A DNA stretch of 42,985 nucleotides from Limnofasciculus baicalensis BBK-W-15 (GTDB lineage Bacteria > Cyanobacteriota > Cyanobacteriia > Cyanobacteriales > Coleofasciculaceae), in NCBI RefSeq assembly GCF_024178385.1, contig NZ_JAMZMM010000008.1, positions 1 through 42,985 on the forward strand, written 5' to 3'. Under the pieces are notes generated by a model. That model worked only from the letters and a program-made list of their open reading frames with translations. It was not told where the DNA came from and ran no database searches. The position numbers and the translations under genes were made by a program. Below are positions 6,202 through 27,237 of this stretch, one piece after another (position 1 is the first letter of the stretch; each line of letters opens with the position of its first letter).

Positions 6202-7653
6202 TTATTTAGCCACAACACCCTGCTTTGCCACACTGATAGCTTTGCGGCGGAGTTCCATAATTTGCCCAATTTCACGAGCAAGAGTCGGTTGTCTTTCGAT
6301 CATCATATAGGCAACCTCAGAATAGATTAAAATCACCTCCATATCTTCCAAAGCCGTGACTGTAATACTTGCTAGTTCCCCAGTAAACAAAGCCATTTCA
6401 CCAAAAAATTCACCACGAGAGAGGATGTAGACTTCTTGTTCTTTTCCTTTCTTGTCGGTAACAGTAACAGATGCTTTACCTGCGACGATAACGTGTAGAG
6501 CATTGATGCGATCCCCTTCTCTAATTATTTTTTCTCCAGCAGCAAAGTTGTGGAGCATAGATCCCTTAGCTAAATCTGCCAAGGAGTCGCCTTCCATCCG
6601 CACTAAAGCAGGTACAGATTGAATACCTTCGTTAAACTTAGTAGTTGCTTGTTCTTGATGAGTAGGTTTATCGGATTGATAGATTTCCCGCACAGGTACA
6701 GGAATTTTCAAATTGTATCGCTTGGCGGCATACCAAAGTCGGGTTCTCAACTCGTCGCGGATATCACCACGATCGCCAAATTCGCTAATCTGAATTACTA
6801 ACTTATATAAAATACCAGATTCTTCATAATCTGCTGTTTGTACAATTGGTTCTGGATCAGTTAATACTCCGGGTGTAGATAGTGCTGTAGCTTTAAGAAC
6901 CTGTTTGACGAAGTTAGGGGGATGTTCGTAGGAAAAGCGGAGTTCAATTTCGTCTTCGTGCTGTATTAATGGTCTACTGTAATTCCGTACTATTTCTTGG
7001 CTGACGATTGTGTGAGGAATTACAATCTCATGCTGCTCTTCTGTGAGGATGCGAATACCGCGCCAATTGATATCAACTACTTTCCCCTCAACCTCTCCTA
7101 TCTGCAGCCAATCTCCCTCTTTAAAGGGACGTTCAAACAACAGAGCAATTCCCGCAAAAATGCTGCCTAATGTGTCTTGCAATGCCAAACCGAGAACAAT
7201 AGAACCCACACCAAGGGCAGCAGCTAAACCCGCGAGGTCTATTTTCCATACGAATGATAGTACTAGGGCACTCCCGGCTGAGATCAAAACTGCCTGAGAT
7301 AAATCGCGGAAGAGTTTAGGAACTTTCGCCCCCAATGATTTTTCACCTCTGTCAGCGAATATTATCCCATTAATTGTAGAAAGAGTTGCGTAGATGGCGC
7401 AAATCCAAAACAAAGTAGCGACTAGCTTAACCGGATTACTGTCATTTTTGAGCTGCCAAACGTACTGCATGAACAGCAGAATCGCCAAGGCAGGGAGAAC
7501 TAAATTCTGAATAAATCTGAGAGTACCTGTGACGCTGCTACCCCGTCGTTTTAGATTGTGAATAACTTCGAGCAGGATAATTTGTAATAGCGGGAACCCT
7601 ATTCCTAAGATTACCGCCCAGATTAATAACTCATTTTGTGCTGTCAATTGCAT
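6202..7653 (-). CDS. MscS-family channel with C-terminal cyclic-nucleotide-binding domain
   Basis: This 483-aa inner-membrane protein has four or five N-terminal membrane helices (for example LLIWAVILGIGFPLLQIIL and LVATLFWICAIYATLSTING). The MscS pore and beta domain follow: LGVGSIVLGLALQDTLGSI, then FERPFKEGDWLQIGEVEG. The C-terminus is a cNMP-binding domain (GEKIIREGDRINALHVIVAG, then FGEMALFTGELASITV). In canonical cAMP pockets the last motif carries an Arg that binds the phosphate; here the segment reads GELASITV with no Arg. I chose the ATG at 7653 because GGGAGAAAAGAA precedes it; a start at 7770 would read through heptamer repeats. It lies 137 bases downstream of three nucleotide cyclase genes on the same strand, so second-messenger gating by their product is a reasonable inference, weakened by the missing Arg. 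Confidence 0.88.
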   Translation of the reverse strand: MQLTAQNELLIWAVILGIGFPLLQIILLEVIHNLKRRGSSVTGTLRFIQNLVLPALAILLFMQYVWQLKNDSNPVKLVATLFWICAIYATLSTINGIIFADRGEKSLGAKVPKLFRDLSQAVLISAGSALVLSFVWKIDLAGLAAALGVGSIVLGLALQDTLGSIFAGIALLFERPFKEGDWLQIGEVEGKVVDINWRGIRILTEEQHEIVIPHTIVSQEIVRNYSRPLIQHEDEIELRFSYEHPPNFVKQVLKATALSTPGVLTDPEPIVQTADYEESGILYKLVIQISEFGDRGDIRDELRTRLWYAAKRYNLKIPVPVREIYQSDKPTHQEQATTKFNEGIQSVPALVRMEGDSLADLAKGSMLHNFAAGEKIIREGDRINALHVIVAGKASVTVTDKKGKEQEVYILSRGEFFGEMALFTGELASITVTALEDMEVILIYSEVAYMMIERQPTLAREIGQIMELRRKAISVAKQGVVAK

Positions 7654-7691
7654 TTCTTTTCTCCCATTGAGGATTATCCTATTTAAAGAAA

Positions 7692-7726
7692 GCTGAAGGC
7701 TGAAGGCTGAAGGCTGAAGGCTGAAG
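7692..7726. repeat. Heptanucleotide STRR (GCTGAAG x5)
   Basis: Five exact tandem copies of GCTGAAG. The repeat lies between the channel gene and the cyclase gene upstream of it, inside the presumed leader of the channel transcript. Copy number probably varies between strains. Confidence 0.85.
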
Positions 7727-7749
7727 TAAAAAATAATTTGACTCTTCCT

Positions 7750-7805
7750 CCCCTGCTCCCCTGCTCCCATGCTCCCCTGCTCCCTGATCCCTAGTCCCTA
7801 GCCCC
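7750..7805 (-). repeat. C-rich/G-rich repeat, eight G-runs, G-quadruplex candidate
   Basis: On the minus strand eight runs of three or four G are separated by loops of three to five bases. The C-runs on the plus strand start at 7750, 7758, 7766, 7774, 7782, 7789, 7796 and 7802. The repeat overlaps the last codons and stop of the cyclase gene. It lies in the RNA sense between that gene and the channel gene, so a transcript could form RNA quadruplexes there. The regular spacing is that of an STRR. Confidence 0.7.
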
Positions 7806-9947
7806 TTTAATTATCCACAAATTTCCCCGGAAGTCGTTATCTTCAACTGGCTCAAATTGGTATAAATCTTCCAGGGATTCGTGTACATTTTGGGAAACCA
7901 GAATTGAACCGGGTATCTTCTCCGCCGCTGATAAGATAGCACTGGTGATTGAAACTGTTCTGCCCCAAACATCGTAGGTTAACTTTTTCTTCCCCACAAT
8001 TCCAGCAAAGACATCTCCGGAATGGATAGCGATACAAATATCGAGATTCAATCCTCTTTCTAGATTAAATTGGCGGATAATCTTGCGCATTTCCATGGCA
8101 AAACTAATGGCGCGTTGGCTGCGATCCGGACTTGAAGTAGTAATCCCAACCGCCGCGATATAATTATCCCCAATGGTTTTAATTTTATCCACCCCATATT
8201 CTGGGAGTGCCCGATCGAATAAACCGACTAGATCGTTAATCGTACTCAATACTTCCTCAACAGTCATTGATTGATACAGCTTGCCAAATCCGATCGTATC
8301 TGCGAATAAAACTGTCACGTTGTCAATATGATCTGCGATGATTTCATCTTTATTTTTCAGGCGTTCCGTTACTGAGGAGGGAAAGACACTTAAGAGTAAG
8401 TCCTCGTTTTCTTGATTTTTCTTTTCGATTAGTTTGGTTTGGGTTTGCAGAGATTGAACCATGGTATTAAAGGATTCGGCTAACTCTCCGAATTCGTCGC
8501 GGGATGCTATGTCAACTACGGCATCAATATCCCCGCTGCCAATCTTGCGGGCACTAGCAATGATCGCCTGAATCGGTTTAATAAAGACAGAGGAAATCAC
8601 CACCGCAACTATGGTGACTATTACTGCTAAAATTGCGCCCCAAAGCAGAACAAATGCACTAAATTCGTGAACAGGTTTGTAAGCTTCCTCCAGATCGATC
8701 TCCGCCACAATTGCCCAACCCAAGCCGCCAACTTCTAAGGGGGAATATGAACTGAGAACGCTCATATTGCGATTATCTGTCAGAATTTGCGTGCCTTTTT
8801 TCCCGGATAAGGCGTTAGTCGCTGCCTCTGAATCGATTTTCAAAAGCAGAATTGTTGTCTGATACCTCTCAATCGCATTAACGAGGCTTTCGTCAACGTC
8901 TGCTGATTTCAGGTTGTCCAAAAACTTTTTCTGGTCTTCGAGAAGGAAACGGGATATCGATCGCATGGTAGAATCTGCTCCTACCAGATAGGTTTGTCCG
9001 GTTTTTCCCAGCCCATCCTTTTCCCAATTTTTGTCTCCCGTCATGATCTTATTCAGATCAGCGTCTGGGATTTGAAGTACTAATACTCCGATCAATTCTG
9101 ATTTATCAAAAATTGGGGCGGCGATGAAAGTTGTTGGTGCGCCAAAGGATGCGGCATATTGTTTGTAATCGACGAGTTTACTGTAGTTTTTGGCTTTTCC
9201 TTGGATCGCAGCATTTACAGCTTCTGCTAAGTTAGTATCCTTGAATTCTCCAGTGGTTAAGTCTCTGGCAAAGTCAATTTGTTTGGCATAGGTGTAGATC
9301 GTAGTATTCGTTTCCGCATCCACTAACATGATATCGACATAGTGAAATCTTTCTTGGATTTCTCTAAAGAGAGAATGGTAGCGGGAATGTACTTGAGTAT
9401 ACTCGCTCCCGTCCCCCGGATCCTCTAGCAAATAGTGATTGTCGTAATCATTTGCGTTGGTGACGAGGTAGTGGTATTCCAGATAGCGATTTCCGGATTG
9501 GGTAGGCGGGGCGGTTTGGATGAGGGGCTTCCCTTCAGGCGTTTTCGGCATGTTGGGGATAATCTGTTCGTTATAATATTTCTCTAGCTTCTTATCCCAA
9601 TAACTCGGCATTGGTATTTTTTCAATTTTCTTGTAGGCTGCCTTAAAATCCTTCATGGCATTAATCACCATCCAGTCTTCACTGAGTGTCTCAACCTGAG
9701 TGCGCAATCCGTCAAAATAGGTGCTAACTTGTGCTGCTCTAGCGGATCGCAAACTGGTTAACTGTTCCAATATTCGTTCGCTCAAATTCTCTTTACCGCT
9801 GTTATAGCTCAATGCCATGAGGGTAAACATACAGGCTAAACTAACTGCTAGTAACATAAATACTAGCTGTGTCCGGATTCCGGTTTTGATCTTGAAGCCG
9901 GACATTAATTTAGTGACTTGTCCAATTTTCTTATATTTCATTACCAT
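7791..9947 (-). CDS. Membrane sensor nucleotide cyclase (Cache-HAMP-class III cyclase), copy 1
   Basis: This 718-aa transmembrane protein should sense a periplasmic signal and make a cyclic nucleotide. The order is: membrane helix about 28-48; extracellular Cache-like sensor to about 430 (FGAPTTFIAAPIFD, then LIGVLVLQIP); second membrane helix (FVLLWGAILAVIVTIVAVVI); HAMP; class III cyclase about 540-700. Metal aspartates are present at about 550 (LFADTIGF) and 594 (TIGDNY), and the adenine-selecting Lys and Asp appear intact (DKIKTIGD, TYDVWG). However, where canonical cyclases have Asn and Arg (VNxASR), this copy reads VSITSA at about 665-670. Both the Asn and the transition-state Arg are gone, so catalytic output may be low or absent. 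It may act as a regulatory partner of the two paralogues upstream. The stop lies inside a heptamer repeat. AGGAG precedes the start by about nine bases. Confidence 0.88.
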   Translation of the reverse strand: MVMKYKKIGQVTKLMSGFKIKTGIRTQLVFMLLAVSLACMFTLMALSYNSGKENLSERILEQLTSLRSARAAQVSTYFDGLRTQVETLSEDWMVINAMKDFKAAYKKIEKIPMPSYWDKKLEKYYNEQIIPNMPKTPEGKPLIQTAPPTQSGNRYLEYHYLVTNANDYDNHYLLEDPGDGSEYTQVHSRYHSLFREIQERFHYVDIMLVDAETNTTIYTYAKQIDFARDLTTGEFKDTNLAEAVNAAIQGKAKNYSKLVDYKQYAASFGAPTTFIAAPIFDKSELIGVLVLQIPDADLNKIMTGDKNWEKDGLGKTGQTYLVGADSTMRSISRFLLEDQKKFLDNLKSADVDESLVNAIERYQTTILLLKIDSEAATNALSGKKGTQILTDNRNMSVLSSYSPLEVGGLGWAIVAEIDLEEAYKPVHEFSAFVLLWGAILAVIVTIVAVVISSVFIKPIQAIIASARKIGSGDIDAVVDIASRDEFGELAESFNTMVQSLQTQTKLIEKKNQENEDLLLSVFPSSVTERLKNKDEIIADHIDNVTVLFADTIGFGKLYQSMTVEEVLSTINDLVGLFDRALPEYGVDKIKTIGDNYIAAVGITTSSPDRSQRAISFAMEMRKIIRQFNLERGLNLDICIAIHSGDVFAGIVGKKKLTYDVWGRTVSITSAILSAAEKIPGSILVSQNVHESLEDLYQFEPVEDNDFRGNLWIIKGARD

Positions 9948-10029
9948 GGAGGGAAACTCCTTATAATTGTTATTTGTTGTTAGTTCTTGGTTGTTTGTTG
10001 TTTGTTATGTGAATTTTAACAATTAATAA

Positions 10030-10110
10030 CCAATAAACAGCAACTAACAACCAACAACTAACAAGCAATAACCAATAACCAACAACTAACAACCAACAAC
10101 TAACAACCAA
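10030..10110. repeat. STRR-type AACCAACAACTAAC repeat tract
   Basis: Low-complexity tract built from 7- and 14-bp units such as AACCAACAACTAAC, with several imperfect copies. The complementary TTGTTGTTTGTT form occurs at 9970-10005, so the two halves of the gap between cyclase genes 1 and 2 can pair. No promoter or gene is evident inside. Confidence 0.65.
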
Positions 10111-10116
10111 ACTAGT

Positions 10117-12432
10117 TTATATAGCTGATGTTGGATCGGTTTGCCGTCTCACTGTACTTTGTAATAGCCAGAGATCCAGATTCTCGTTGCCACCAACTTC
10201 TATACTACCAACGCGATCGAATTCGTATATATCTTCCACAGCATTGTAGACGGTTTGGGTGACTAAAATTGAACCAGGCATACTCAAAGGATTGTTTAAG
10301 ATCCGGTTGGCGGTTGTCACGGTGTCACCCCAAACATCATAAGTAAACTTTTCAGTTCCGATGATTCCCGTCAAGACATCCCCAGAGTTAATTGCGATCG
10401 CAATATCCAGATTCAATCCCCGATCCTGACTAAATCGGCGGACAATACCGCGCATTTCTAGGGCAAAATCGATCGCTCGTTTTCCGTGATCTAGTGTTGG
10501 TCTTGCTAGTCCGCAAGCTGCCATATAGTTATCGCCAATGGTTTTAATTTTATCCACTCCATATCGATCGTTGGCTTCATCAAAGCTATTCACGAGGTCA
10601 TTCAATGTAGAGACTATCTCATCAATTGTCATGGATTCATACAGCTTGCCGAAGCCGATGATATCACTGAATAATACACTGACATTAGAAATCCGTTCAG
10701 TGATACCTCGTTCTCCTTTTTTGAGGCGTTGGGCGATGGAATCTGGAAATACTTTCAGCAGAATTTCATCATTTTCTCGATTCTTTTCTTCAATCAGTTC
10801 TGTTTGGTTTTTCAGAGAGCTAACCATGTTGTTAAAAGAGTCTGCTAATTCTCCAAATTCATTTTTGGCAGGCAACTTGACCACTGTATTCATATCGCCA
10901 TTGGCAATTTTTTTTGCCTTGTAAATTAACAGATTAATTGGTTTGATAAACAGATAGGATAAAACCAGCGCCACTATGGTGACGACTAATACGAGGAGAG
11001 AACCCCAGAGCAGAATAATCCGTTGAAACCCGTAAATAGGCTGATAAGCTTCAGTCAGATCGATCTCCGCCACGATTGCCCACTGTAATCCTTCCACTTC
11101 TAACGGCGCGTAGGAACTGAGAACAGCCTTCCCGCGAGCATCTCTGACAATTTTGGTTTTGCTCTTTCCCTCCAATGCTTCCTCTACTGCGGTTGACTCT
11201 ACTTTTACGAGGAGAATGGTGGTGTTGAAATCCTTAATTTTTTCCAGGATATCTTCACTTACATTACTCTCTCGCAGATCTTTGAAATAATTATTGGGGT
11301 TTTCAATTAAGAAACGAGATATATTCCGCATGGTATAGTCTGGTCCGACTAAATCAGTTTTTCCAGTCTTTCCTAACCCATCTCCTTTCCAATTTTTATT
11401 CCCAGTCATAATCCGATCGATCTGACTAGCAGGAAGCTGTAAAACTAAAACCCCAATTAATTCCGATTGGTCAAAAATTGGTGCCCCCACGAAGGCAGTC
11501 GGTGCGCCAAAGGAGGGAGCGTATTGCTCGAAATCCACAAACTTAACGTAGTTTTTCGCCCTAGTTGCCAGTACTGCTCTAACTGCATCGGCTTCATTGC
11601 TTTGCTTGTATGCTCCCGTCAATATACTTCTGGCAAAGTCAACTTGTTTGGAATAGCTGTAGACAGTGATGCCCGTTTTTGCATCAATTAGGATGATATC
11701 TTCATAATGAAATCTTTGTTGCAACTCTCTCAAGAGAGGGTGGTAGCGATTGTGAACGTTACTGTAGGCGCTGCCGTCTCCCGCATCGTCTAGGAGATAG
11801 CGCTCGTTGGGAGGATTGGGGTTGTTGGCAATGTACTGGTACTGTAGATAGCGACCAGATACTGTTGCTGGTTTATAAAGTTCGAGTACGGGTTCACCAT
11901 CGCTAATTTTGGCGATTCCCGGTAGATATTGTTTTTCATAGTATTCTGTTATTTTGGCTTCCATTTCACTGGGTACGGTTACCTTTGCATCCGATGGCAA
12001 TTCTTTGGTCTTTTCTGTTTCTGGCTTTTTGGTAGCAACCGGGCTGCTATTTCCCTGGGCTTTAGTCACCTCGCTGGTATCCAACTTAACTGGATCGAGC
12101 TGTTTTGATAGCTGATCGTAGGCTGCGTTAAAATCTTTCATGGCATTGAGTACCATCCAGTTTTGACTCAAAGCCTGAGCCTGAGTGTGCAAGTCTTGAA
12201 AGTACCCACTAATTTGAGAGCTTCTGGCGGATCGTAAGCTGGTTAACTGATCAAAGATGCGATCGCTGAGATTCTCTTTACCGTTTTCATAACTCATATA
12301 CGCGATTGTCCACATGGAACAGAAGCTCACCACTAGGACCATGATCACCAACTGTGTTCTAATACTCGCTTTCAAACTGAAGCGGGACATTAGTTTTGCC
12401 AGTGGACTGATTTTGTTATACACCATTCTCAT
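10117..12432 (-). CDS. Membrane sensor nucleotide cyclase (Cache-HAMP-class III cyclase), copy 2
   Basis: This paralogue of the neighbouring cyclases is about 771 aa. The architecture matches copy 1: short cytoplasmic start, membrane helix, Cache-like periplasmic sensor (FGAPTAFVGAPIFD, LIGVLVLQLPA), second helix (IILLWGSLLVLVVTIVALVL), HAMP and cyclase. The sensor is longer than in copy 1 by a Lys/Glu/Thr-rich linker (VATKKPETEKTKELPSDA). Both metal aspartates are present (LFSDIIGF, TIGDNY), as are the adenine-selecting Lys and Asp (DKIKT, TYDVWG). The Arg is kept in VTTANR, but the usual Asn is Thr. It is therefore probably the more active relative of copy 1. I chose the ATG at 12432 because GAGG lies about eight bases upstream and the start then aligns with the paralogues (MRMVYNKIS). 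It lies 169 bases upstream of copy 1, same strand. Confidence 0.88.
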   Translation of the reverse strand: MRMVYNKISPLAKLMSRFSLKASIRTQLVIMVLVVSFCSMWTIAYMSYENGKENLSDRIFDQLTSLRSARSSQISGYFQDLHTQAQALSQNWMVLNAMKDFNAAYDQLSKQLDPVKLDTSEVTKAQGNSSPVATKKPETEKTKELPSDAKVTVPSEMEAKITEYYEKQYLPGIAKISDGEPVLELYKPATVSGRYLQYQYIANNPNPPNERYLLDDAGDGSAYSNVHNRYHPLLRELQQRFHYEDIILIDAKTGITVYSYSKQVDFARSILTGAYKQSNEADAVRAVLATRAKNYVKFVDFEQYAPSFGAPTAFVGAPIFDQSELIGVLVLQLPASQIDRIMTGNKNWKGDGLGKTGKTDLVGPDYTMRNISRFLIENPNNYFKDLRESNVSEDILEKIKDFNTTILLVKVESTAVEEALEGKSKTKIVRDARGKAVLSSYAPLEVEGLQWAIVAEIDLTEAYQPIYGFQRIILLWGSLLVLVVTIVALVLSYLFIKPINLLIYKAKKIANGDMNTVVKLPAKNEFGELADSFNNMVSSLKNQTELIEEKNRENDEILLKVFPDSIAQRLKKGERGITERISNVSVLFSDIIGFGKLYESMTIDEIVSTLNDLVNSFDEANDRYGVDKIKTIGDNYMAACGLARPTLDHGKRAIDFALEMRGIVRRFSQDRGLNLDIAIAINSGDVLTGIIGTEKFTYDVWGDTVTTANRILNNPLSMPGSILVTQTVYNAVEDIYEFDRVGSIEVGGNENLDLWLLQSTVRRQTDPTSAI

Positions 12433-12538
12433 CGGAGGAACCTCATGGAGCATTTCAATTTAGTAGTTCGACTATTAATTTCTTTGAAGCTTTTCACTTC
12501 CCTGGGATATCAGATCTGCTGATTATACCACATATATT

Positions 12539-12622
12539 AGGACTTACGCAGCCACATTATTAGTAGTGTGAGTGGTCCGCTCTTCAGAGCGTAACTACGG
12601 ATAGAGTCTTTGCGTAAGTCCT
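12539..12622. mobile_element. MITE-like element with 12-bp terminal inverted repeats, copy 1
   Basis: An 84-bp stretch starts with AGGACTTACGCA and ends with the exact inverse TGCGTAAGTCCT. The interior includes GTGGTCCGCTCTTCAGAGCG. It encodes nothing. A diverged copy lies at 15261-15349. The GGACTTACGCA termini resemble small non-autonomous elements common in cyanobacterial genomes. No target duplication is certain. Positions 12454-12742 otherwise hold only repeats. Confidence 0.65.
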
Positions 12623-12704
12623 GTATATGAAGGATGAAGTATAAAGTCTGAAGTCTGAAAAAAAATTCTACTTCATCCTAACTTAACAAATCAGTCCTTT
12701 TGAC

Positions 12705-12745
12705 ACTTCAACCTTCATACTTCAACCTTCATCCTTCAACTTTCA
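12705..12745. repeat. STRR-type CTTCAACCTTCATA repeat
   Basis: About three imperfect copies of the 14-bp unit CTTCAACCTTCATA. The repeat runs into the 3' end of cyclase gene 3 and supplies its stop codon (12743-12745). Confidence 0.7.
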
Positions 12746-15121
12746 TACTTTGACTGTCAATATTTGACTGGTTACTGTAGTTTGTAAAAGCCAAAGTCCC
12801 AATTTTTTATTATTGCTTGTTTCCAAATAGCTAACTAACTCGAATTCATAGATATCTGCCACAGATTCGTAGACATTTTGGGAAACTAAGATTGAACCGG
12901 GTATACTTGCTGGACTTCCTAAGCTACGATTGGCAATACTAACAGGTTCACCCCAAACATCATAGGTTACCTTTTCCCTGCCAATGATACCTTGCATCAC
13001 TTCTCCAGAGTGAATCCCGATACAAATATCTAGGTTAAGTCCTTTTTCTAGATTAAAGCGGCGGATGATACTCCGCATTTCCAAAGCAAAATCAACAATC
13101 CGTTTACTGCGATCCAGCTTGGGATTTGAGAGTCCGCAAGCGGCAACGTAATTATCACCTAGGGTTTTAATTTTATCGATTCCATATTGTTCAGCAGCTT
13201 GATCGAAGGCATTGACAATATCATTGAGAATAGTCACCACTTCATCAATAGACATAGTTTGATATAGTTCAGAGAATCCTTCAATATCAGAAAATAAGAC
13301 AGTGACGTTGGAGATGAGATCGCCAATATTTTGTTCTTTATTTTTCAGCCGTTTAATCAAGGAATCTGGAAATATTTTCAGGATAATTTCCTCGTTATCC
13401 TGACTTTTTTCATCAATTAGTTCCCTTTGACTTTGGAGAACGTCTACCATATTATTAAATGAATTGGCTAACTCACCAAATTCGTTTTTGACGTTCAATT
13501 TCGCCAGATTATCTGTGTCCCCATTGCTAATTTTACTGGCATTACCAATGAGAATATTAACAGGTTTGATAAAGATATAAGAAAGGATAATTGCTCCCCC
13601 CGTAACTATTATCACCAACAACGAACTCCAAAGGAGGATGACTCCTTGAAAACCGTAAATTGGGGCGTATGCTTCCTTAAGATCAATTTCCGCTATAATT
13701 GCCCAATTCAAGTCACGGATTTGCAAGGGGGAATATGAACTGAGAACAGTGACTTCCCGATTATCTTTGATAATCTGCGTCCCCTCTTTTCCAGCAAAAG
13801 CTTCTTTTGTCGCTGTTGTTTTTACTTCTGTGAGGAGAATTGTTGTACCATATTCCTTGATTTTGTTAATGATGCTGTTACTTACATTTGCTGCCCGGAG
13901 ATTCTTTAAATAATTTTCCTTGTCTTCAATTAAGAATCGAGATATAGATCGCATTTTATAATCCGATCCTACCAACTCGGTTTTGCCAGACTTCCCTAAA
14001 CCATCTTTTTCCCAATTTTGGTTATTAGTCATAATTTGCTTAATCGGATCAACTGGGATTTGCACGGCTAAAATCCCAATCAATTCTGATTTATCAAAAA
14101 TTGGGGTAGCAATGAAAGCCGCAGGTGCGCCAAATGAAGGGTAATAGGATTGGAAATCAACGATTTTAGTGTAACCTTTTGCCTTAACTTGCATAATCGT
14201 CTTTGCCGCCTCTGCCAAGTTTGTCTGGTTATAGGGACCTTTTAATAGGCTAGTAGCAAAGTCTGTTTCTTTGGAAGCTGTGTAGATAATATCCCCAGTT
14301 TCCGGATCGATCAAGAATATATCATAGTAAGCAAATCGTTTGAGAATTCGTCTGAAAATCGGGTGGTAGATATCGTGAATGCGACTGTATTCGCTACCAT
14401 CCTTGGCATTATCTAGTAAATCTTTCTTCCCCACAGGATTGGGATTGGCCGCAATATAGTGGTATTGTAAATAGCGAGCTGCTGGATTTCTCGGTTTATA
14501 GAGTTCTAGGATTGGCTTACCTTCTGTTATTTTGGTCAGTTTGGGCAAATATTCTTGTTCGTAGTAGGTGTTCAGTTTGGCATCTAAATCGCTGGGTATG
14601 GCGATCTTGTTCCGTAAATTACTTGGACTCGTTATATTTATGTCTGAATTACTGGGTGTTGGCGTTTTTTCGGCTAAATTACTTGAACTTATTTCCTGAG
14701 TATCTGAGTTACTCTGTCTGGTCTTTTTTTCTTGTAAATTAGTGGTATTATTTGGCTCGATCTCGGAATTAGTCGGTGTTGTCTCCTGTTCGAGATCCCG
14801 GTAAGCTGCCTTAAAATCTTTCATGGCGTTAATCACTCGCCAGTCTTGATTTAAGCTTTGAATTTGGGTAGTTAGGTTATCAAAGTAGGTGGTAATTTGG
14901 TTGCTTCTAACTGAGCGCAAGGTATTTAATTGGTCAAATATTCTTTCCCTGAGATTCGCTTTCCCGTTTTCATAACTTATATACCCAATTGCCCCCATCG
15001 AACCAATGCTAACTCCTAACACCATCAGTACTAGTTTTGTCCTAATACTGGTGTTCACCTTTAATTTAGGGATTCGTTGAGCAATATCCCCGATCTTTTT
15101 ATATGTCTTATAACTGTTCAT
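12743..15121 (-). CDS. Membrane sensor nucleotide cyclase (Cache-HAMP-class III cyclase), copy 3
   Basis: This is the longest of three tandem paralogues (792 aa from the chosen start). Domain order is as in copies 1 and 2. The metal aspartates (LFSDIEGF, TLGDNY), adenine-selecting residues (DKIKT, TYDVWG) and the Arg (VSIANR) are present, but the usual Asn is Ser. The periplasmic sensor contains a Ser/Asn-rich insertion (about residues 125-180) made of three imperfect repeats around SNL.EK and SNSD, absent from copy 1. I prefer the ATG at 15121 (MNSYKTYKK) because AGGCGGTG lies at a proper distance; a GTG at 15133 is also open. It is flanked by two MITE-like repeats in the same orientation, which may have helped the duplication. 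Being first in the row, it may carry the promoter; no clear -10/-35 was identified. Confidence 0.88.
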   Translation of the reverse strand: MNSYKTYKKIGDIAQRIPKLKVNTSIRTKLVLMVLGVSIGSMGAIGYISYENGKANLRERIFDQLNTLRSVRSNQITTYFDNLTTQIQSLNQDWRVINAMKDFKAAYRDLEQETTPTNSEIEPNNTTNLQEKKTRQSNSDTQEISSSNLAEKTPTPSNSDINITSPSNLRNKIAIPSDLDAKLNTYYEQEYLPKLTKITEGKPILELYKPRNPAARYLQYHYIAANPNPVGKKDLLDNAKDGSEYSRIHDIYHPIFRRILKRFAYYDIFLIDPETGDIIYTASKETDFATSLLKGPYNQTNLAEAAKTIMQVKAKGYTKIVDFQSYYPSFGAPAAFIATPIFDKSELIGILAVQIPVDPIKQIMTNNQNWEKDGLGKSGKTELVGSDYKMRSISRFLIEDKENYLKNLRAANVSNSIINKIKEYGTTILLTEVKTTATKEAFAGKEGTQIIKDNREVTVLSSYSPLQIRDLNWAIIAEIDLKEAYAPIYGFQGVILLWSSLLVIIVTGGAIILSYIFIKPVNILIGNASKISNGDTDNLAKLNVKNEFGELANSFNNMVDVLQSQRELIDEKSQDNEEIILKIFPDSLIKRLKNKEQNIGDLISNVTVLFSDIEGFSELYQTMSIDEVVTILNDIVNAFDQAAEQYGIDKIKTLGDNYVAACGLSNPKLDRSKRIVDFALEMRSIIRRFNLEKGLNLDICIGIHSGEVMQGIIGREKVTYDVWGEPVSIANRSLGSPASIPGSILVSQNVYESVADIYEFELVSYLETSNNKKLGLWLLQTTVTSQILTVKV

Positions 15122-15260
15122 TTTCAATTTCACCGCCTGGTAGGTTTTATCTAATCTATTAGTTAATACCGATTGATATTGTCATGTCTGATATCAATTT
15201 AGTATCACTTGAATAAAAGTCAATCCCGTCTGTTAATTCTCGGTTACTCTGTATTATACT

Positions 15261-16129: not shown

Positions 16130-17278
16130 TTAAGCATCGACAATCCAATCCACTTGATAGGCTTCAGTAATATCTGGAATGTCTAAGCGCTCGCGCATTC
16201 GCTCTATTACGGCTTCTGGTACCATTGTAGAACGAGAACGATTCCGTTGTAATAATTCTTGCCAATCTACTTCCAAATAAACAATGCGAATTCTGCCGTG
16301 GTAAGCTGAAAATAGGTTAACTAGAGAACAACGTAATTGCCGAGAAATATTGCTTGCATTCCATACAAAAGATTTTCCAGCTCTCATGTACTCCTTTGCT
16401 GTTGCTTTGGCTCTATCCACTACTGGCGCTTGATCGTCTGTAGGTGAAACTTTCATGACTTTTCGCAATTCATCTAAAGATATTACTGTCCAATTCGGTA
16501 GATTTTTCTCAATCCAATAGTCTTTGCCAGATGCGGGTAATCCTGACATCATAATAACTTCAAATTTGGTATCGTCAAATGCCAGATAATTGGGATCGCC
16601 ATTCTCTTTTTGGAAATAGATAAATCGACTAAGATTCGAGGGAAACTGCCAGGGACTATTTAAGCAATTATTCTCTTGACAAAATTCAACAAAATACTCA
16701 ATTCGTTCCAATAATTGTCCTCGATCTTCACATTCACGCCCGCGCACATCAGCTTCTGCGAGTATTGCCAATAAATCGCATCGGATTAATTGACTGGCTT
16801 TAATTACAGCACGTTGAGGATTAGGTTTGTCCCAAAACCAAAGGGGTAAACTGCCATATTGTACCAAGGAAACTATTGCCTCTCGGTGTTGAAATGGTAC
16901 ATTCATTTCCCATGAAATTTGCCGCGCCATTTTTGCCCCCTGACGCACATGCCCTTTTGAGGTAATTCTGCCATCTGTTTCGATTTCAGTGGCAGCAGGT
17001 TTGGCGATATCGTGTAATAATGCGGCAGCAAATAGTATCGATCTTTCAGTAGGAGGTAATTCTTGCCAAGCGGGTAATGAAATTAATGCTTCACAGACTA
17101 AACGGGTATGGGTTAAAACATCTCCTTCAGCATGATAAAGGGGATCTTGGGGACAATTGGCAAGGGATTGTAGCCAATAAAATTTAGATTGAAGTGATGC
17201 CCAATCTAATGTCCAATTGGGAGGAGTTGGAGAGTAGGGAAATAACCAGGGTAGGGATTGAGAAATAGAGTAAGTCAT
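16130..17278 (-). CDS. HD-Pnk-type RNA/DNA end-healing enzyme (HD phosphoesterase + polynucleotide kinase)
   Basis: This 382-aa protein has two catalytic modules. Residues about 45-180 form an HD phosphohydrolase: His in THTRLV (57), the His-Asp pair in LLHDIAKP (89-90), His in SKGHVRQGAKMA (110) and Asp in AEADVRGRE (177). Residues about 240-380 form a P-loop kinase: GLPASGKD (246-253), SLDELRKVM with the likely base Asp (269), VWNASNISRQLR and a lid segment rich in Arg (LLQRNRSRS). The same order is known from HD-Pnk of Runella slithyformis, which removes 3' or 2',3'-cyclic phosphate with HD and phosphorylates a 5'-OH with the kinase. It lies 151 bases downstream of an RNA ligase gene, so the pair can heal and seal broken RNA. 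The link to that enzyme is from domain order, not a search. Confidence 0.85.
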   Translation of the reverse strand: MTYSISQSLPWLFPYSPTPPNWTLDWASLQSKFYWLQSLANCPQDPLYHAEGDVLTHTRLVCEALISLPAWQELPPTERSILFAAALLHDIAKPAATEIETDGRITSKGHVRQGAKMARQISWEMNVPFQHREAIVSLVQYGSLPLWFWDKPNPQRAVIKASQLIRCDLLAILAEADVRGRECEDRGQLLERIEYFVEFCQENNCLNSPWQFPSNLSRFIYFQKENGDPNYLAFDDTKFEVIMMSGLPASGKDYWIEKNLPNWTVISLDELRKVMKVSPTDDQAPVVDRAKATAKEYMRAGKSFVWNASNISRQLRCSLVNLFSAYHGRIRIVYLEVDWQELLQRNRSRSTMVPEAVIERMRERLDIPDITEAYQVDWIVDA

Positions 17279-17429: not shown

Positions 17430-18218
17430 CTACTGAAATAAATCGACATCCGGACGAAGGAGATTAGGAATAATTGGACGATTTAGCCAATGCCCATCGG
17501 ATTGTTTGATTGTAGTTAAAAAGCTGGCACGGACATATTTATAACGTTCTTTGACTATTCCCTCCTCTTCTACTTTAATATATAAACCTTCCATTAGTGA
17601 ACTAGAATCAGTTTGGCTGAGACTTCGCTCTACATCTAATCCTCTTTCCTCACAAACTTGGCGGAATCTTTCTAAATGTCCGGATTGAATGTAATGAGAC
17701 TGAGTGAGTAATTGAGTGAGTTGTTTGTAGGAGTTAAGCTTACCTGAGAATAGTACGGGGACAGAAAGTAGGGGCAATCCGGCTAATAACTCGTTGCGAC
17801 GTTGGGTACTGAGAAACTGTTTCTGTTCCCAATCTAACAAATCGTATTCTAGAAAATAGTGGGGCAAGTAATCGTAGAATACAGTATGTTTAGCGTAGAG
17901 CCATTCTCCATATAAAATATAGCGACTACCCAAAACATCCCAAAAGGTTACGCTATGACTATATGCCCACTGTTTAAATAAATTAAAGTGCTTTTCTCTC
18001 TCTCCTCCAGTTAAATAATGACCGCGACTTTGCAAGCGCATTTGTCCATCGGTACTGAAACTAATAGCTGTGTTAGCACCATCTATTTTTTCTTCAACTA
18101 CTAAATATTTAGAGGCGATATTGCTAAAGGGGATGCTTTCTAAGTCTTCATCTCCTGGCTGCAATCGGGAGCCTTGAATATGAGGGGTGCGAGGGTATTT
18201 GTAAATTTGTTCCATCAT
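17430..18218 (-). CDS. ATP-dependent RNA ligase
   Basis: This 262-aa protein has the nucleotidyltransferase motifs of RNA ligases. Motif I is VEEKIDGANTAI with the AMP-accepting Lys at about 44. An Arg-Gly element follows (RLQSRGHYLTGGE). Motif III-like is ILYGEWLYAKHTVFYD (about 101-116). Motif IV is MEGLYIKVEEEG (about 208-219). Motif V is VKERYKYVRASF (about 221-232). It is close in size to compact bacterial RNA ligases and lacks an extra DNA-binding OB domain, which argues for RNA rather than DNA. It seals 3'-OH/5'-phosphate ends, which the HD-Pnk encoded next downstream can produce. It follows the TIGR03985 CRISPR regulator gene on the same strand after 193 bases of hairpin repeats. The first two codons are both ATG; no strong ribosome-binding site helps choose. 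Confidence 0.87.
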   Translation of the reverse strand: MMEQIYKYPRTPHIQGSRLQPGDEDLESIPFSNIASKYLVVEEKIDGANTAISFSTDGQMRLQSRGHYLTGGEREKHFNLFKQWAYSHSVTFWDVLGSRYILYGEWLYAKHTVFYDYLPHYFLEYDLLDWEQKQFLSTQRRNELLAGLPLLSVPVLFSGKLNSYKQLTQLLTQSHYIQSGHLERFRQVCEERGLDVERSLSQTDSSSLMEGLYIKVEEEGIVKERYKYVRASFLTTIKQSDGHWLNRPIIPNLLRPDVDLFQ

Positions 18219-19920: not shown

Positions 19921-21258
19921 ATGGGGGAGACAGTTGAGAAGGATGGACAAACTAGCTTTATGAGTACATCTGAGTTTGATAAGTACAAAGTTGATCATCT
20001 GTTTTTGCTGATTGGCGAGAATCCTTTGCCAAATTATGTGGCGGCTAGGCTTTTGTTAAATAACGGCGGTACGCCCTATCTTGTGTATACAAGCGGTACA
20101 GACAAGTCAGCAAAACGTCTGCAAACAATATTGAAGAATGAGCCAATTGGGTTAAAGGAGGCTCAACTTGTAGCACTTAATGATTACGAATCCGATGCTT
20201 ATCACATTCAAAAAGAAATTCGTGACAAGTTAAACACTATAACCAATGGAACCATTGGATTAAATTATACTGGTGGTACGAAAGCGATGGCTGTACACGC
20301 TTACAGAACAGTTTTCAGTGAGTGTCCCGACACTGTTTTTAGTTATCTCGATCCGCGTAGATTGGAGATGTGTATTGATCGAGAAAATGCCCCCCGTATT
20401 CCTATTAAAGTTAAACCTGCATTAGTGCCAGTAAAACTTGCTAAAATTTTCCAGATACATGGATGGATGTGGAAAGACAAGTCAGAGCCTATTGATAAGC
20501 CAGAATTACCTGAAGCCGCCAAAGCTTTTGCTGCGTTTCATAACAACGGTGAGTTAGTAAATTTATGGCGTGATTGGTGTAATGAAGTTTTGCGAAAAGT
20601 AGCCCGAGATGAAAAAGATAAAAACAAATGGAAAAAGGAAACTAAGCTAACAGAGCTTTCTACTTTGAGCATAGAGAAGCTGAAGTCGAAGGAAGGGATC
20701 ATGAGTAACTTGATTCATTTAGGAGTTGTGGGTGAGGATTTATCACTTCAGGCTATCAAAGAGAAAGGACTCCAAAGCTTAGAAGCTGCCTGTAAATGGT
20801 TAGACGGCGAATGGTTAGAGCATTATGTTTTACAGCAAGTGCAAGAAATTCCTGAAGACTTATCTATTCACGATAGCGCTACTTCATTTTGGATTCGGAA
20901 TCCAATCGATCCTAAAAATACTAAATTTCAGTTTGATGTTGCCTTCATGCGAGGATATCAACTCTTTGCGATCTCTTGTACAACTATCGCCCGCAAATCT
21001 GATTGCAAATTGAAGCTATTTGAAGCTTACATCAGAGCGCGACAACTGGGTGGAGACGAAGCGCGAGTTGCACTAGTCTGTTGTGCTAGCGAGAAAGATG
21101 TGAATGCCCTTGAAACAGAAATTGTAAATGTTTTTAATCCTGCTCCAGAAAGTGGAAAAAGAGATCGCAAAATAGCCGTATTTGGACGGGAGGATCTCAT
21201 CGATTTATCGAGCAAGATTGAAGCATGGGTTAAGCAAAACGATAAGGATGCAAGATGA
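19921..21258 (+). CDS. CARF-domain protein with degenerate PD-(D/E)XK nuclease-like domain (Card1/Can2-like)
   Basis: This 445-aa protein heads the type III-D operon. The N-terminal CARF-like domain has the ligand-loop motifs LIGENPLPNYVAA (about 30-42) and LNYTGGTKAMAVHAY (about 114-128), which bind cyclic oligoadenylate in this family. The C-terminus aligns with the DUF1887/Card1 nuclease: Glu in LDGEWLEHYV (300), Asp in FQFDVAFMRGYQLFAISCTT (339), then ARQLGGDEARVALV. Where Card1 has Glu-x-Lys, this protein has Ser352-Cys-Thr354. Cleavage may use a different residue (Lys363 or Lys365 in CKLKLFEAY), or the protein may signal without cleaving. I kept the ATG at 19921 because AGGTG precedes it. 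An ATG at 19960 is an alternative. The stop overlaps the cas10 start by ATGA. Confidence 0.82.
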   Translation: MGETVEKDGQTSFMSTSEFDKYKVDHLFLLIGENPLPNYVAARLLLNNGGTPYLVYTSGTDKSAKRLQTILKNEPIGLKEAQLVALNDYESDAYHIQKEIRDKLNTITNGTIGLNYTGGTKAMAVHAYRTVFSECPDTVFSYLDPRRLEMCIDRENAPRIPIKVKPALVPVKLAKIFQIHGWMWKDKSEPIDKPELPEAAKAFAAFHNNGELVNLWRDWCNEVLRKVARDEKDKNKWKKETKLTELSTLSIEKLKSKEGIMSNLIHLGVVGEDLSLQAIKEKGLQSLEAACKWLDGEWLEHYVLQQVQEIPEDLSIHDSATSFWIRNPIDPKNTKFQFDVAFMRGYQLFAISCTTIARKSDCKLKLFEAYIRARQLGGDEARVALVCCASEKDVNALETEIVNVFNPAPESGKRDRKIAVFGREDLIDLSSKIEAWVKQNDKDAR

Positions 21259-22922
21259 AAAAGTTTACTGTCACTGTACTAGACACCACTGGAATTCAAC
21301 CCTACATTTTTGGAAGTAACCGTCTGCGCGAAAATATTGGTGCATCCTACCTAGTCTCTCAAGCAACGGACAACTGGGCGAGAAATGCTTTAGATACATT
21401 GAAAGCAAAGATAAAGCAAAAAATTTACGCTTTCGCTCCTGAAAAACATCAACCAGATGCCAAACCGCGCATCGAAGATGATGAATTAGCTGCTGAATTA
21501 GTTTATGCGGGTGGTGGCAATACAATCTTGCTATTTTCAGACAAGCAATATGCGGTGGAATTTACTCAAATTTTGAGCAAGCGAATCTTAGAAGAAGCAC
21601 CAGGAATTAATCTTGTAGCTGTTCATCAAGAGTTTGATTGGAATACTGAATCTCTCTATAAGGTGGTTCAGAATTTGATGAAAAATGACTTGGATGCAAA
21701 AAAGCGAAGTCGGATACCCTCTGCACCATTGCTAGGTTTGGGTGTGACTGCAACTTGTCGATCGACTCAGTTAGTCGCTGTAGGTGAAAGTGAAAAATTT
21801 GAAGATGATGAACCCTATCTTATTTCAACAGAGATTGATGCAAAACTCAAAGTGGTTCGTCAAGCTAACGATCACCTGCAAAAAATGTTTGCCACTTCTT
21901 TAGGTTCGTATGAATTCCCTCTAAGAACAGATAAGATGGGTCGTTCAGAAGGGGATTCCAGCTATGTTGCTGTTATTCATGCTGATGGTAATGGTATGGG
22001 AAAACGCTTTCAAAAATTTGGCGAAAAGCTGTCTAACCGCAACTACATTATCGCCATGCGTCAACTTTCCCACAGCGTTAATCAGGCTGGTATCAATGCA
22101 CTAAAAAAAGTAGTAGAGATACTGGTTAATTCCATTAAGGTAGATACCGATGGGAAAAGAAAGGTAAAGGGACATTTTGAAATCAAAGATAATTACTTAC
22201 CATTCCGTCCTCTAGTTTATGGTGGTGATGATGTCACCTTTGTTTGTGATGGACGCTTGGGACTAGAACTGGCGGCTATTTATCTTGAAGAACTTGCAAA
22301 ACCAATTGCAGATGGTAAGGATATTAAAGCTTGTGCGGGAATTTGTGTTGTCAAAACTCACTATCCCTTTGCACGGGCTTATCAATTGAGTGAAGACTTA
22401 TGTCGAAAAGCTAAAAGCTTTGTTAAAGATGAGAAAAAATTGGGCAAAGAAGATTTTTCGGCTTTAGACTGGCATTTGGCAGCTAGTGGCTTAATTGGTT
22501 CAATTTCGGAAATTCGCGATCGCGAATTTCAAGTACCCGCAGGTAGTTTATCAATGCGACCTATCAGTTTAAAAAAAGAAATCGATAGCGATTGGCGTAC
22601 TTGGCAAGGTTTTACCAAAGTAGTCAAGCACTTAAATGAAGATGAAGATTGGAAAGGTCGTCGTAATAAGGTGATTGCCTTACGAGATGTACTGCGTCAA
22701 GGAATTGAAGCAACTCAGAAGTTTCTCAAAAACTACAGAATAAAGGATGAGCAACTGCCAACTTTCCCAGAATTTAGCGGTCAAAGTAAAAGTTTAGCTG
22801 AGAAAGGTTGGTTGAATGGAGTTTGTGGTTATTTTGATGCCATTGAAGCGATGGACTTTTATATCTCATTGAGGGAAGAATCAGATGCCGATTTACAGAC
22901 TGAAAATAAAACTACTGAGTGA
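21255..22922 (+). CDS. cas10: Cas10 (type III-D), no HD domain, GGDD cyclase motif intact
   Basis: This 555-aa protein is the large subunit of a type III effector. It opens directly with the palm-type start TTGIQPYIFGSNRLRENIGA, where other Cas10 proteins carry an N-terminal HD nuclease, so it should not cut single-stranded DNA. Palm 1 shows AGGGNTILLF (about 85-94). Palm 2 shows VIHADGNGMGKRF (about 240-252) and VYGGDDVTFV (about 321-330). GGDD is the catalytic motif for cyclic oligoadenylate synthesis. The zinc-finger cysteines usual between the palms are missing; only one Cys lies in that region. It overlaps the CARF gene by 4 bases and the next gene by 38 bases in another frame. Signalling rather than DNA cleavage is its likely output. 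Confidence 0.9.
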   Translation: MKKFTVTVLDTTGIQPYIFGSNRLRENIGASYLVSQATDNWARNALDTLKAKIKQKIYAFAPEKHQPDAKPRIEDDELAAELVYAGGGNTILLFSDKQYAVEFTQILSKRILEEAPGINLVAVHQEFDWNTESLYKVVQNLMKNDLDAKKRSRIPSAPLLGLGVTATCRSTQLVAVGESEKFEDDEPYLISTEIDAKLKVVRQANDHLQKMFATSLGSYEFPLRTDKMGRSEGDSSYVAVIHADGNGMGKRFQKFGEKLSNRNYIIAMRQLSHSVNQAGINALKKVVEILVNSIKVDTDGKRKVKGHFEIKDNYLPFRPLVYGGDDVTFVCDGRLGLELAAIYLEELAKPIADGKDIKACAGICVVKTHYPFARAYQLSEDLCRKAKSFVKDEKKLGKEDFSALDWHLAASGLIGSISEIRDREFQVPAGSLSMRPISLKKEIDSDWRTWQGFTKVVKHLNEDEDWKGRRNKVIALRDVLRQGIEATQKFLKNYRIKDEQLPTFPEFSGQSKSLAEKGWLNGVCGYFDAIEAMDFYISLREESDADLQTENKTTE

Positions 22923-23553
22923 TACAACATTTGGACGGGGAGATGGAGTCGCAGGTTTAATTGACCAAGAAGTCGAACACGATCCTTTTGGTTTTCCGTA
23001 CTTGCGGGGACGTACTCTCAAGGGATTGCTGAGTGAAGAATGCGATAACTTAATTGCAATCTTGACTAATCATAAACAGGATTGGGAAAGAGTTGCTTGC
23101 AAGCTATTTGGGACTTTGGGGAGTACCATAGGGACAATGGGAGCAGTTCATGTTGGTGACGCTTGTTTGCCAGAAGATTTACGTCAAGCTGTTGCTTTCC
23201 AAATTGAGGACAAAACTTTAACAAAAACAGAGGTACTTGATTCCCTAACAACTATCCGCCGTCAAACTTCTATCAACTCACAATCCGGTACATCGGATGA
23301 GGGGAGTTTGCGTTCATTTCGTGTAGTTTTGCGCGACATTTGTTTCACTGCTGACTTAATTTTTGAGAAGATACCAAGTGATGAAATGCTATCACTTGTA
23401 GCTGTGGGTTCGCTAGCACTTCGGCACTTGGGTAGCGGACGCAATCGAGGTCGCGGTCATGTTCAATGTACCCTATACGACTCGGAAGGTAATGACGTTA
23501 CCCATCAATATGCTAACTATTTTGGTCAGGAAATCAAGGAGAAAGTTGGATGA
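22885..23553 (+). CDS. cas7: Cas7/Csm3-like RAMP, stand-alone (type III-D)
   Basis: This 222-aa single RRM-fold RAMP forms part of the crRNA backbone. It carries the Cas7 active-site segment EVEHDPFGFPYLRGRTLKG (about 29-47). Asp33 corresponds to the residue that cuts target RNA in Csm3-type subunits. A glycine-rich loop HLGSGRNRGRG (181-191) and a thumb-like segment (IRRQTSINSQSG) are visible. The ATG lies 38 bases inside cas10 with GAGG upstream, implying coupled translation. Its stop overlaps the Csx10 start by ATGA. In the structurally studied Synechocystis III-Dv complex this Cas7 is fused to Cas5 and Cas11. Here it is a separate protein. Confidence 0.85.
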   Translation: MPIYRLKIKLLSDTTFGRGDGVAGLIDQEVEHDPFGFPYLRGRTLKGLLSEECDNLIAILTNHKQDWERVACKLFGTLGSTIGTMGAVHVGDACLPEDLRQAVAFQIEDKTLTKTEVLDSLTTIRRQTSINSQSGTSDEGSLRSFRVVLRDICFTADLIFEKIPSDEMLSLVAVGSLALRHLGSGRNRGRGHVQCTLYDSEGNDVTHQYANYFGQEIKEKVG

Positions 23554-26641: not shown

Positions 26642-27237
26642 ATCAGGAATTATGTCAGACATCAGTTGAAAACCTTAGCGAAGAGTCGCTTAAGGATTGG
26701 CTCAAGCAGCAGGCGCAGAATTATCAATTACCCTATCTGTTAGCTCATGCCGAAGATGGAGTTATCTGGGGACATTTTGATATTGATAGTGGGACGTTAA
26801 CAACCGCTAGAGAGATATTTATTGAATGTAATTTTCCTAAATTGTGCTTGAATACGCTGCAACAATGCCGAGTGTTTGGAGAAGCAGGTGAAGTGTTACT
26901 ATGGAATAGTAATGGAGAATGGCGATCGCGCCCAGTTTTGCAAAGTAAAGTTTCAGAGTTAATTGCTCAAGACAAAATAGGTTTAATTCCAGAAACACAA
27001 ATTCTCTGGGGTACGCAGGGAAAAACGAATGGTAACTTTACCTTACTGTCAGATGGTTCTCAAGGACTCAAACACGCTGTTCCGATCCCCGTAGAAGAAA
27101 GTTACTTTAGAAAAGATAAAAATGAACTGTATCGTCCAGTGCGACTAGAAGTAAACCACTATTTTTGCTACAACTCAGATGGAGTAGCAAGAATTTTTCT
27201 GAGCCGTCTAGTATCTCTCAAAAAGGAGAAAATCTAA
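26638..27237 (+). CDS. csx19: Csx19-type III-D subunit
   Basis: This 199-aa protein matches Csx19, a subunit found only in type III-D loci. The visible landmarks are YLLAHAEDGVIWGHFD, LNTLQQCRVFGEAGEVLLW, NSNGEWRSRPV and ILWGTQGKT, in the order expected for that family. In the III-Dv complex Csx19 contacts the backbone near Cas7 subunits; its enzymatic role, if any, is unknown. It overlaps the double Cas7 gene by ATGA and its stop TAA shares one base with the next ATG. There is no membrane segment or signal peptide. Confidence 0.78.
   Translation: MNQELCQTSVENLSEESLKDWLKQQAQNYQLPYLLAHAEDGVIWGHFDIDSGTLTTAREIFIECNFPKLCLNTLQQCRVFGEAGEVLLWNSNGEWRSRPVLQSKVSELIAQDKIGLIPETQILWGTQGKTNGNFTLLSDGSQGLKHAVPIPVEESYFRKDKNELYRPVRLEVNHYFCYNSDGVARIFLSRLVSLKKEKI

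Follow-up and report, generated by a model that had tools for sequence, protein, structure and literature searches.

The subject of this analysis is a row of three receptor genes and an adjoining channel gene in a 42,985-nucleotide stretch of DNA from the cyanobacterium Limnofasciculus baicalensis BBK-W-15 (contig NZ_JAMZMM010000008.1, positions 1 to 42,985), which is called the window throughout. The receptors are encoded by three tandem open reading frames (ORFs) on the minus strand at 7791-9947 (copy 1), 10117-12453 (copy 2) and 12743-15133 (copy 3), copy 3 being the first in reading direction. A Pfam scan revealed an architecture common to the three copies, consisting of a sensor part, a HAMP domain, found in each of them, and a class III cyclase domain. 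The Guanylate_cyc model (PF00211) scored 134.7, 153.3 and 137.7 bits in copies 1, 2 and 3 (cut-off 21.9). The dCache_1 model stayed below the Pfam cut-off in copies 1 and 2 and was not reported for copy 3, the sensor part of which is homologous to the dCache-like part of the other two. Among the NCBIfam matches listed (the best 25 of 34 matches for copy 1 and the best 25 of 36 for copy 2), no model exceeded its cut-off. Pairwise identity among the copies is 51-53% in the sensor parts and 53-55% in the HAMP-cyclase parts, and the sensors are thus not unusually diverged. A gene for an MscS channel with a C-terminal cyclic-nucleotide-binding domain (CNBD) is located 137 bases downstream of copy 1, so that a sensor-cyclase stands directly upstream of a same-strand MscS-CNBD gene. 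The channel scored 65.6 bits for PF00924, 24.7 bits for PF21082 and 71.6 bits for PF00027. The following features were assigned:

12743..15133, minus strand: copy 3, sensor part, HAMP and class III cyclase-like domain; start at GTG 15133 or ATG 15121
12830..13312, minus strand: cyclase-like domain of copy 3; both metal Asp, Lys, Asp and Arg kept, Asn changed to Ser (VSIANR)
10117..12453, minus strand: copy 2, dCache-like sensor, HAMP and class III cyclase-like domain (from ORF and Pfam)
10162..10701, minus strand: cyclase-like domain of copy 2; both metal Asp, Lys, Asp and Arg kept, Asn changed to Thr (VTTANR)
7791..9947, minus strand: copy 1, last in reading direction and adjoining the channel; dCache-like sensor, HAMP and class III cyclase-like domain
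7827..8336, minus strand: cyclase-like domain of copy 1 (residues 538-707)
7938..7955, minus strand: VSITSA of copy 1, with Ser at the Asn site and Ala (codon 7938-7940) at the transition-state Arg site
6202..7653, minus strand: partner channel, MscS (PF00924, PF21082) with C-terminal cNMP-binding domain (PF00027); likely start ATG 7653, listed ORF from 7770
6295..6552, minus strand: CNBD of the channel (residues 407-492 of a 522-residue frame)
6370..6372, minus strand: Ala codon of the window channel at the phosphate-binding Arg site of cyclic-nucleotide pockets (GEMALFTGELASITV)

In reading direction the spacers measure 289, 169 and 137 bases, the last one separating copy 1 from the channel. 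Each spacer of the cluster contains short tandem repeats of a heptamer type (7688-7784, 9967-10110 and 12626-12750). Scans for promoters (22 promoter-like sites, 21.8 in shuffled sequences) and terminators (10 terminator-like sites, 7.4 in shuffled sequences) gave no clear excess.

The roles of the two metal-binding aspartates, the adenine-selecting Lys and Asp, the Asn and the transition-state Arg are established for class III cyclases. What the NxxxR motif does is also described in PMC12264004. Motif alignments revealed both metal aspartates and the Lys and Asp pair in all three copies. The Asn of the N...R motif is changed in every copy (Ser, Thr and Ser in copies 1, 2 and 3), and the Arg is replaced by Ala in copy 1 and present in copies 2 and 3. 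An earlier note on this DNA had described three tandem sensor cyclases with a graded loss of these residues. Its residue assignments were borne out at each of these sites; the grading holds for Arg, lost in one of three copies, and fails for Asn, which is equally changed in all three. The stretch around the Arg site aligned without gaps (copy 1: TYDVWGRTVSITSAIL), so that no shift restores an Arg in copy 1, and this possibility was rejected because none was seen in the motif alignments.

The comparison of orthologous clusters, proposed in the same note, led to a single sister genome with the triplet, Cyanobacteria bacterium UBA11153 (G011, locus L061). Its residues at the Asn and Arg sites are identical to those of the window (VSIASAIL in the orthologue of copy 1), and the shared Ala speaks against a sequencing error. 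The dN/dS value of copy 1 against the sister genome (Nei-Gojobori) is 0.135 for the whole protein and 0.129 for the catalytic part; the catalytic parts of copies 2 and 3 gave 0.102 and 0.121. The catalytic domain of copy 1 is under purifying selection, and selection on copy 1 and on the channel CNBD is as strong as on the remainder. The whole genome contains 33 PF00211 domains, of which 30 were examined, four of them members of the receptor family. Both metal aspartates, the Asn and the Arg were kept in all 26 of the other cyclases, and the residue loss in the triplet therefore exceeds chance. In the four family members (the triplet and one on contig C190) the Asn was gone in 4/4 and the Arg in 2/4. 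Judged by profile and motif, the receptors belong to the class III cyclase fold family and the triplet copies are not catalytically complete.

The nucleotide pocket of the channel is altered as well. Its phosphate-binding Arg site was located by alignment against cGMP-dependent kinase. None of 95 scored family channels has an Arg at this site (93 Ser and 2 Ala, the latter in the window and the sister genome), and in other lineages 21 of 23 MscS-CNBD channels retain the Arg. Most family channels, that of the window among them, retain the pocket Glu. On the channel tree the Arg-less family channels and the others fall on either side of one branch (support 100, with a long-branch warning), and the state of the pocket Arg needs two changes in all.

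To place the triplet, the sensor part of copy 1 was used as a query against 388 genomes of the order, 97 of which contained a sensor relative at an E value of 1e-20 or better. A set of 100 loci was retrieved. Counting the window, 97 loci contain a cyclase frame; these and seven later loci yielded 108 proteins that carry a cyclase-like domain, some of them near-copies of one another. The Arg site holds Arg in 24 and Ala in 28 of the 108 proteins, followed by Phe, Gln, Ser and others. The first metal aspartate is present in 53 proteins, the second in 64 and both in 43; the full catalytic residue set is found in 15. Neither Asp nor Glu occurs at either metal site in 20 proteins, and three of these that were scanned (L149, L160 and L170) still score 98-124 bits with PF00211. 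On the tree of the sensor parts the Arg state has to change eight times, and well-supported branches force at least seven of these changes, gain and loss not being distinguished. The six triplet proteins of the two genomes form one clade (support 100), in which copies 1 and 2 group to the exclusion of copy 3 (support 95). Within the sampled genomes, the triplet thus originated in this genus, and the Ala of copy 1 predates the split of the two genomes.

Some relatives carry other outputs or additions. In L158 and L175 a sensor of this family is followed by a chemotaxis (MCP) output instead of a cyclase, and no channel match was obtained in these genomes. Degenerate sensor-cyclases with an extra C-terminal globin domain are encoded at L170 (4267-6924) and L149 (5239-7863); an MscS-CNBD gene is linked to the former and divergent from the latter.

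Receptor and channel occur together, a tie that the earlier note overlooked along with the channel itself, 137 bases downstream, and its altered pocket. In the taxonomic family the receptor was detected in 11 of 20 genomes and the channel in the same 11 at E values of 1e-25 or better, the match in G004 (5.4e-28) being partial. In the order, 89 genomes contained both, 8 the sensor alone, 9 the channel alone and 282 neither; the Fisher value for this co-occurrence is 7e-67 and ignores relatedness. The sensor-only genomes comprise two with a chemotaxis output and no cyclase (G200, G311), three with remote sensors for which no cyclase frame was found nearby (G234, G364, G384) and three drafts (G220, G263, G344). 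The channel-only genomes are two drafts (G271, G356), two with a CNBD remnant only (G244, G290) and five with near-threshold matches. Stand-alone CNBD frames of 150-188 residues and of the Ser type were observed at L280 (4988-5455), L281 (5144-5593) and L282 (5138-5701); they come from G109, G244 and G290, in which no fuller channel match is listed.

The two genes are also neighbours. Among the 97 loci with a cyclase frame, a channel lies on the same strand within 450 bases downstream in 76 and within 2 kb in a further 4, while 5 loci run off the contig and 12 have no channel so placed, which puts a channel within 2 kb downstream in 80 of 92 testable loci. Eight of these 12 loci belong to a fully degenerate clade (NSTN.KAF), and seven of its genomes carry the channel on another contig. 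The remaining four comprise L186, with a second sensor frame in between, L149, with a divergent channel, and L130 and L166, with the channel 11-12 kb away. In other orders of the class, the six strongest channel matches (E below 1e-140) are all linked to a sensor-cyclase. Receptor and channel distances of the 76 linked pairs correlate with r = 0.919, and when partners were exchanged within each of the nine genomes that contain at least two modules, the true pairing ranked first among 6144 arrangements. As linkage alone would give the same correlation, these values indicate that the modules move and diverge as units and do not prove protein contact.

Two loci deviate in their gene structure. 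At L131 (2206-4947) a 914-residue frame fuses dCache-HAMP to MscS-CNBD and has no cyclase domain; the genome is a draft, the frame may be either a natural fusion or an assembly fault, and its relatives have separate genes. The second sensor at L186 has no PF00211 match and stands beside two channels. The arrangement of these genes is a hint at direct coupling.

MscS-CNBD channels of other lineages were examined for cyclases in their vicinity. A class III cyclase of another type was present within the fetched stretch in 11 of 24 such loci, and all 12 cyclase frames that could be scored at every site had both metal aspartates, Lys, Asn and Arg. At six loci of family f41, which belongs to the same class (L254, L255, L257, L260, L261 and L267), a cyclase with a complete motif follows an Arg-type MscS-CNBD gene on the same strand, and a CHASE2 sensor was found in all five of the f41 cyclases scanned (L260 left out). 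The CHASE2-type cyclase and the Arg-type channel possibly constitute a canonical cyclase-channel pair. There seem to be two kinds of cyclase-channel neighbourhood, one combining a complete cyclase with an Arg pocket and one of the window type, in which both are changed. Genome G503 carries one of each kind (L235 and L261).

The explanation that we favour, with a probability of roughly 55%, is a dedicated receptor-channel module with eroding cyclase chemistry, the receptor half of which has been triplicated in the window. It builds on the observed linkage, co-occurrence and matched co-divergence of the two genes, the purifying selection, the repeated change of cyclase residues and the absence of the pocket Arg, from which we infer that the receptor controls the channel. 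An external ligand would bind the dCache-like sensor, the signal would run via HAMP to the cyclase-like dimer, and this dimer would act on the CNBD ring and so alter the channel state. For the majority of family members, this last step would be independent of efficient cAMP synthesis and of canonical cAMP binding, and the dimer would act as a nucleotide-binding or purely structural relay. A cAMP circuit needs both a cyclase and a pocket, and the family has lost key residues in both, which argues for a dimer that is mostly a relay. The residue pattern suggests that many family receptors dispense with the usual messenger when signalling to the channel. In the window, copies 2 and 3 may retain weak cyclase activity, and copy 1, which adjoins the channel, most likely has a regulatory role and no catalytic activity by itself. 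A more specific mechanism can be offered only tentatively and has, in our estimate, less than an even chance of being correct: messenger-free gating of a private MscS-type channel, the Arg-less CNBD ring of which the cyclase-like dimer would contact directly, with the triplicated sensors converging on one channel.

Several observations weigh against this explanation. The Arg and metal aspartates of copies 2 and 3 and the full residue set of 15 members make an enzymatic function possible, and the family may have started out as enzymes and may in part still work as such. Weak binding of cAMP, or binding of another nucleotide, is conceivable for a CNBD that has no Arg. The pocket change falls on a single branch of the channel tree and is thus essentially one old event that coincides with the receptor link rather than repeated evidence. 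Linked genes are inherited together, so matched trees are no proof of contact. The Fisher value and the fractions overstate independence due to related genomes and near-copies among the 108 proteins, and G109, tallied as containing both genes, has a remote sensor and a CNBD remnant only. Both predicted structures are poor (mean pLDDT 57.2 for copy 1 with an alignment of six rows and 43.1 for the channel with an alignment of two rows) and give no structural support for contact.

The most serious competitor is a local second-messenger circuit, in which the receptors are working adenylate cyclases, copy 1 by means of heterodimers with copy 2 or 3, and their cAMP, acting on the CNBD, gates the adjacent channel, a mode of gating implied by the name bCNG. 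The adjacency of cyclase and CNBD channel genes fits this proposal, as do the metal aspartates, Lys and Asp in all three copies, the Arg in two of them and the CNBD Glu kept by the window channel. Canonical versions of such a circuit also seem to exist in the six f41 loci, and chytrid NeoR provides an example of a cyclase domain that lacks N and R and is active only in heterodimers (PMC12264004). However, the Asn is altered in all three copies, the phosphate-binding Arg is missing in 95 of 95 scored family channels, and whole channel-linked clades lack the Lys, metal aspartates and Arg (e.g., L170, L172, L176 and L178). We consider this circuit less likely than the favoured module.

A heterodimer confined to the triplet is rather improbable. 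Copy 1 would be a C1-like donor of the metal site that depends on copy 2 or 3 for the Arg, the channel being a mere neighbour. The residues complement each other, as copy 1 has both metal aspartates and the other two copies could supply the Arg, though not the Asn. With a dN/dS of 0.13, copy 1 is conserved in the two genomes that have the triplet, and, like NeoR (PMC12264004), it lacks N and R and retains the metal aspartates. Nevertheless, the co-occurrence and linkage indicate that the channel is not an accidental neighbour. The main point against a heterodimer comes from genomes with a single family member, for which twelve genomes were searched and all candidates scored. The Arg site holds Ala in G026 (one contig), G199, G091 and G248 and Thr in G099; the sites are degenerate in G142, G317 (one contig) and G312, and the full residue set is present in G302. 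Some of the single-member genomes that lack the Arg are complete. With no second family member there is no Arg lender from the family in these genomes, other class III cyclases being possible lenders, and the loss of the Arg in copy 1 hence needs no partner from within the family. The seven to eight or more changes of the Arg state on the family tree also weigh against a heterodimer. The earlier note had suggested two possible roles for copy 1, action in heterodimers only or regulation; the second is favoured here, and the first is possible and not needed. For its further idea, a ligand range that may be widened by several paralogous sensors, the identities given above show sensor parts that are not unusually diverged. 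Ordinary decay of copy 1, as a redundant duplicate turning into a pseudogene, could appeal to its being one of three paralogues and the one with the most changed motif, but is very improbable in view of a catalytic dN/dS similar to that of copies 2 and 3 and of frames that are intact in two genomes, with proteins 84% alike and Ala in both; sequencing error is disfavoured on the same grounds.

The proposed receptor-channel module differs from known systems in several respects. As in other class III cyclases (PF00211), the catalytic fold is recognised by profile, the two metal aspartates and the Lys and Asp are present, and a HAMP-coupled dimer is expected. The window copies differ in the change of Asn in all three, the loss of Arg in copy 1 and the tie to a channel gene, and the residue loss is common across the receptor family. 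The best-scoring solved relatives of copy 1 are membrane adenylate cyclases 9, 8 and 5. The cyanobacterial cyclases 1wc0 (CyaC; E 4.3e-6) and 2w01 (Cya2; E 1.7e-10) are distant relatives of the catalytic domain and match copy 1 more weakly than the animal membrane cyclases do. In mammalian C1/C2 and chytrid RGC1/NeoR, a domain without the N...R pair likewise stands beside domains that hold part of it; the receptor family lacks the Arg even in single-member genomes, and heterodimers are putative here. NeoR has no NxxxR motif and functions as part of a heterodimer (PMC12264004).

A bCNG channel is an MscS protein with a cyclic-nucleotide-binding domain; such channels were reportedly treated by Caldwell in 2010 and Malcolm in 2012. 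The window channel shares with them the MscS beta and C-terminal domains and the CNBD. The family channels differ in having Ser or Ala at the phosphate-binding Arg and an adjoining receptor partner, and cyclic-nucleotide gating is putative for them. The f41 pair resembles the window in that a sensor-cyclase gene adjoins an MscS-CNBD gene and differs in its sensor, its gene order, the complete cyclase motif and the retained pocket Arg.

The rest of the window contains further gene rows. Upstream of the cluster, on the minus strand, an HD plus AAA_33 protein and an adjoining RNA ligase (16130-17278 and 17430-18218) resemble an RNA repair pair. A Type III CRISPR-like gene row with a Cas10/Cmr2 palm domain and several RAMP proteins occupies 19921-29540 on the plus strand, with a Card1-like CARF endonuclease ahead of it and a divergent gene for a WYL-domain protein at 19845-18412.

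To our knowledge, the gating of MscS-CNBD (bCNG) channels in living cells has been little explored. Knowledge of mechanosensitive channels in cyanobacteria is called limited in a 2026 paper (PMC13312541). No description of the receptor-channel pair was found in the searched literature on MscS/bCNG channels, cyclases and cyanobacteria, which reached few subscription papers. The receptor, found together with the channel in one in four of the order's sampled genomes, is a candidate input for bCNG-type channels. The joint change of the cyclase sites and the nucleotide pocket, beside intact pairs in other lineages, predicts a coupling without a canonical cAMP step. The numerous "adenylate cyclases" of this type should not be tallied as cAMP producers.

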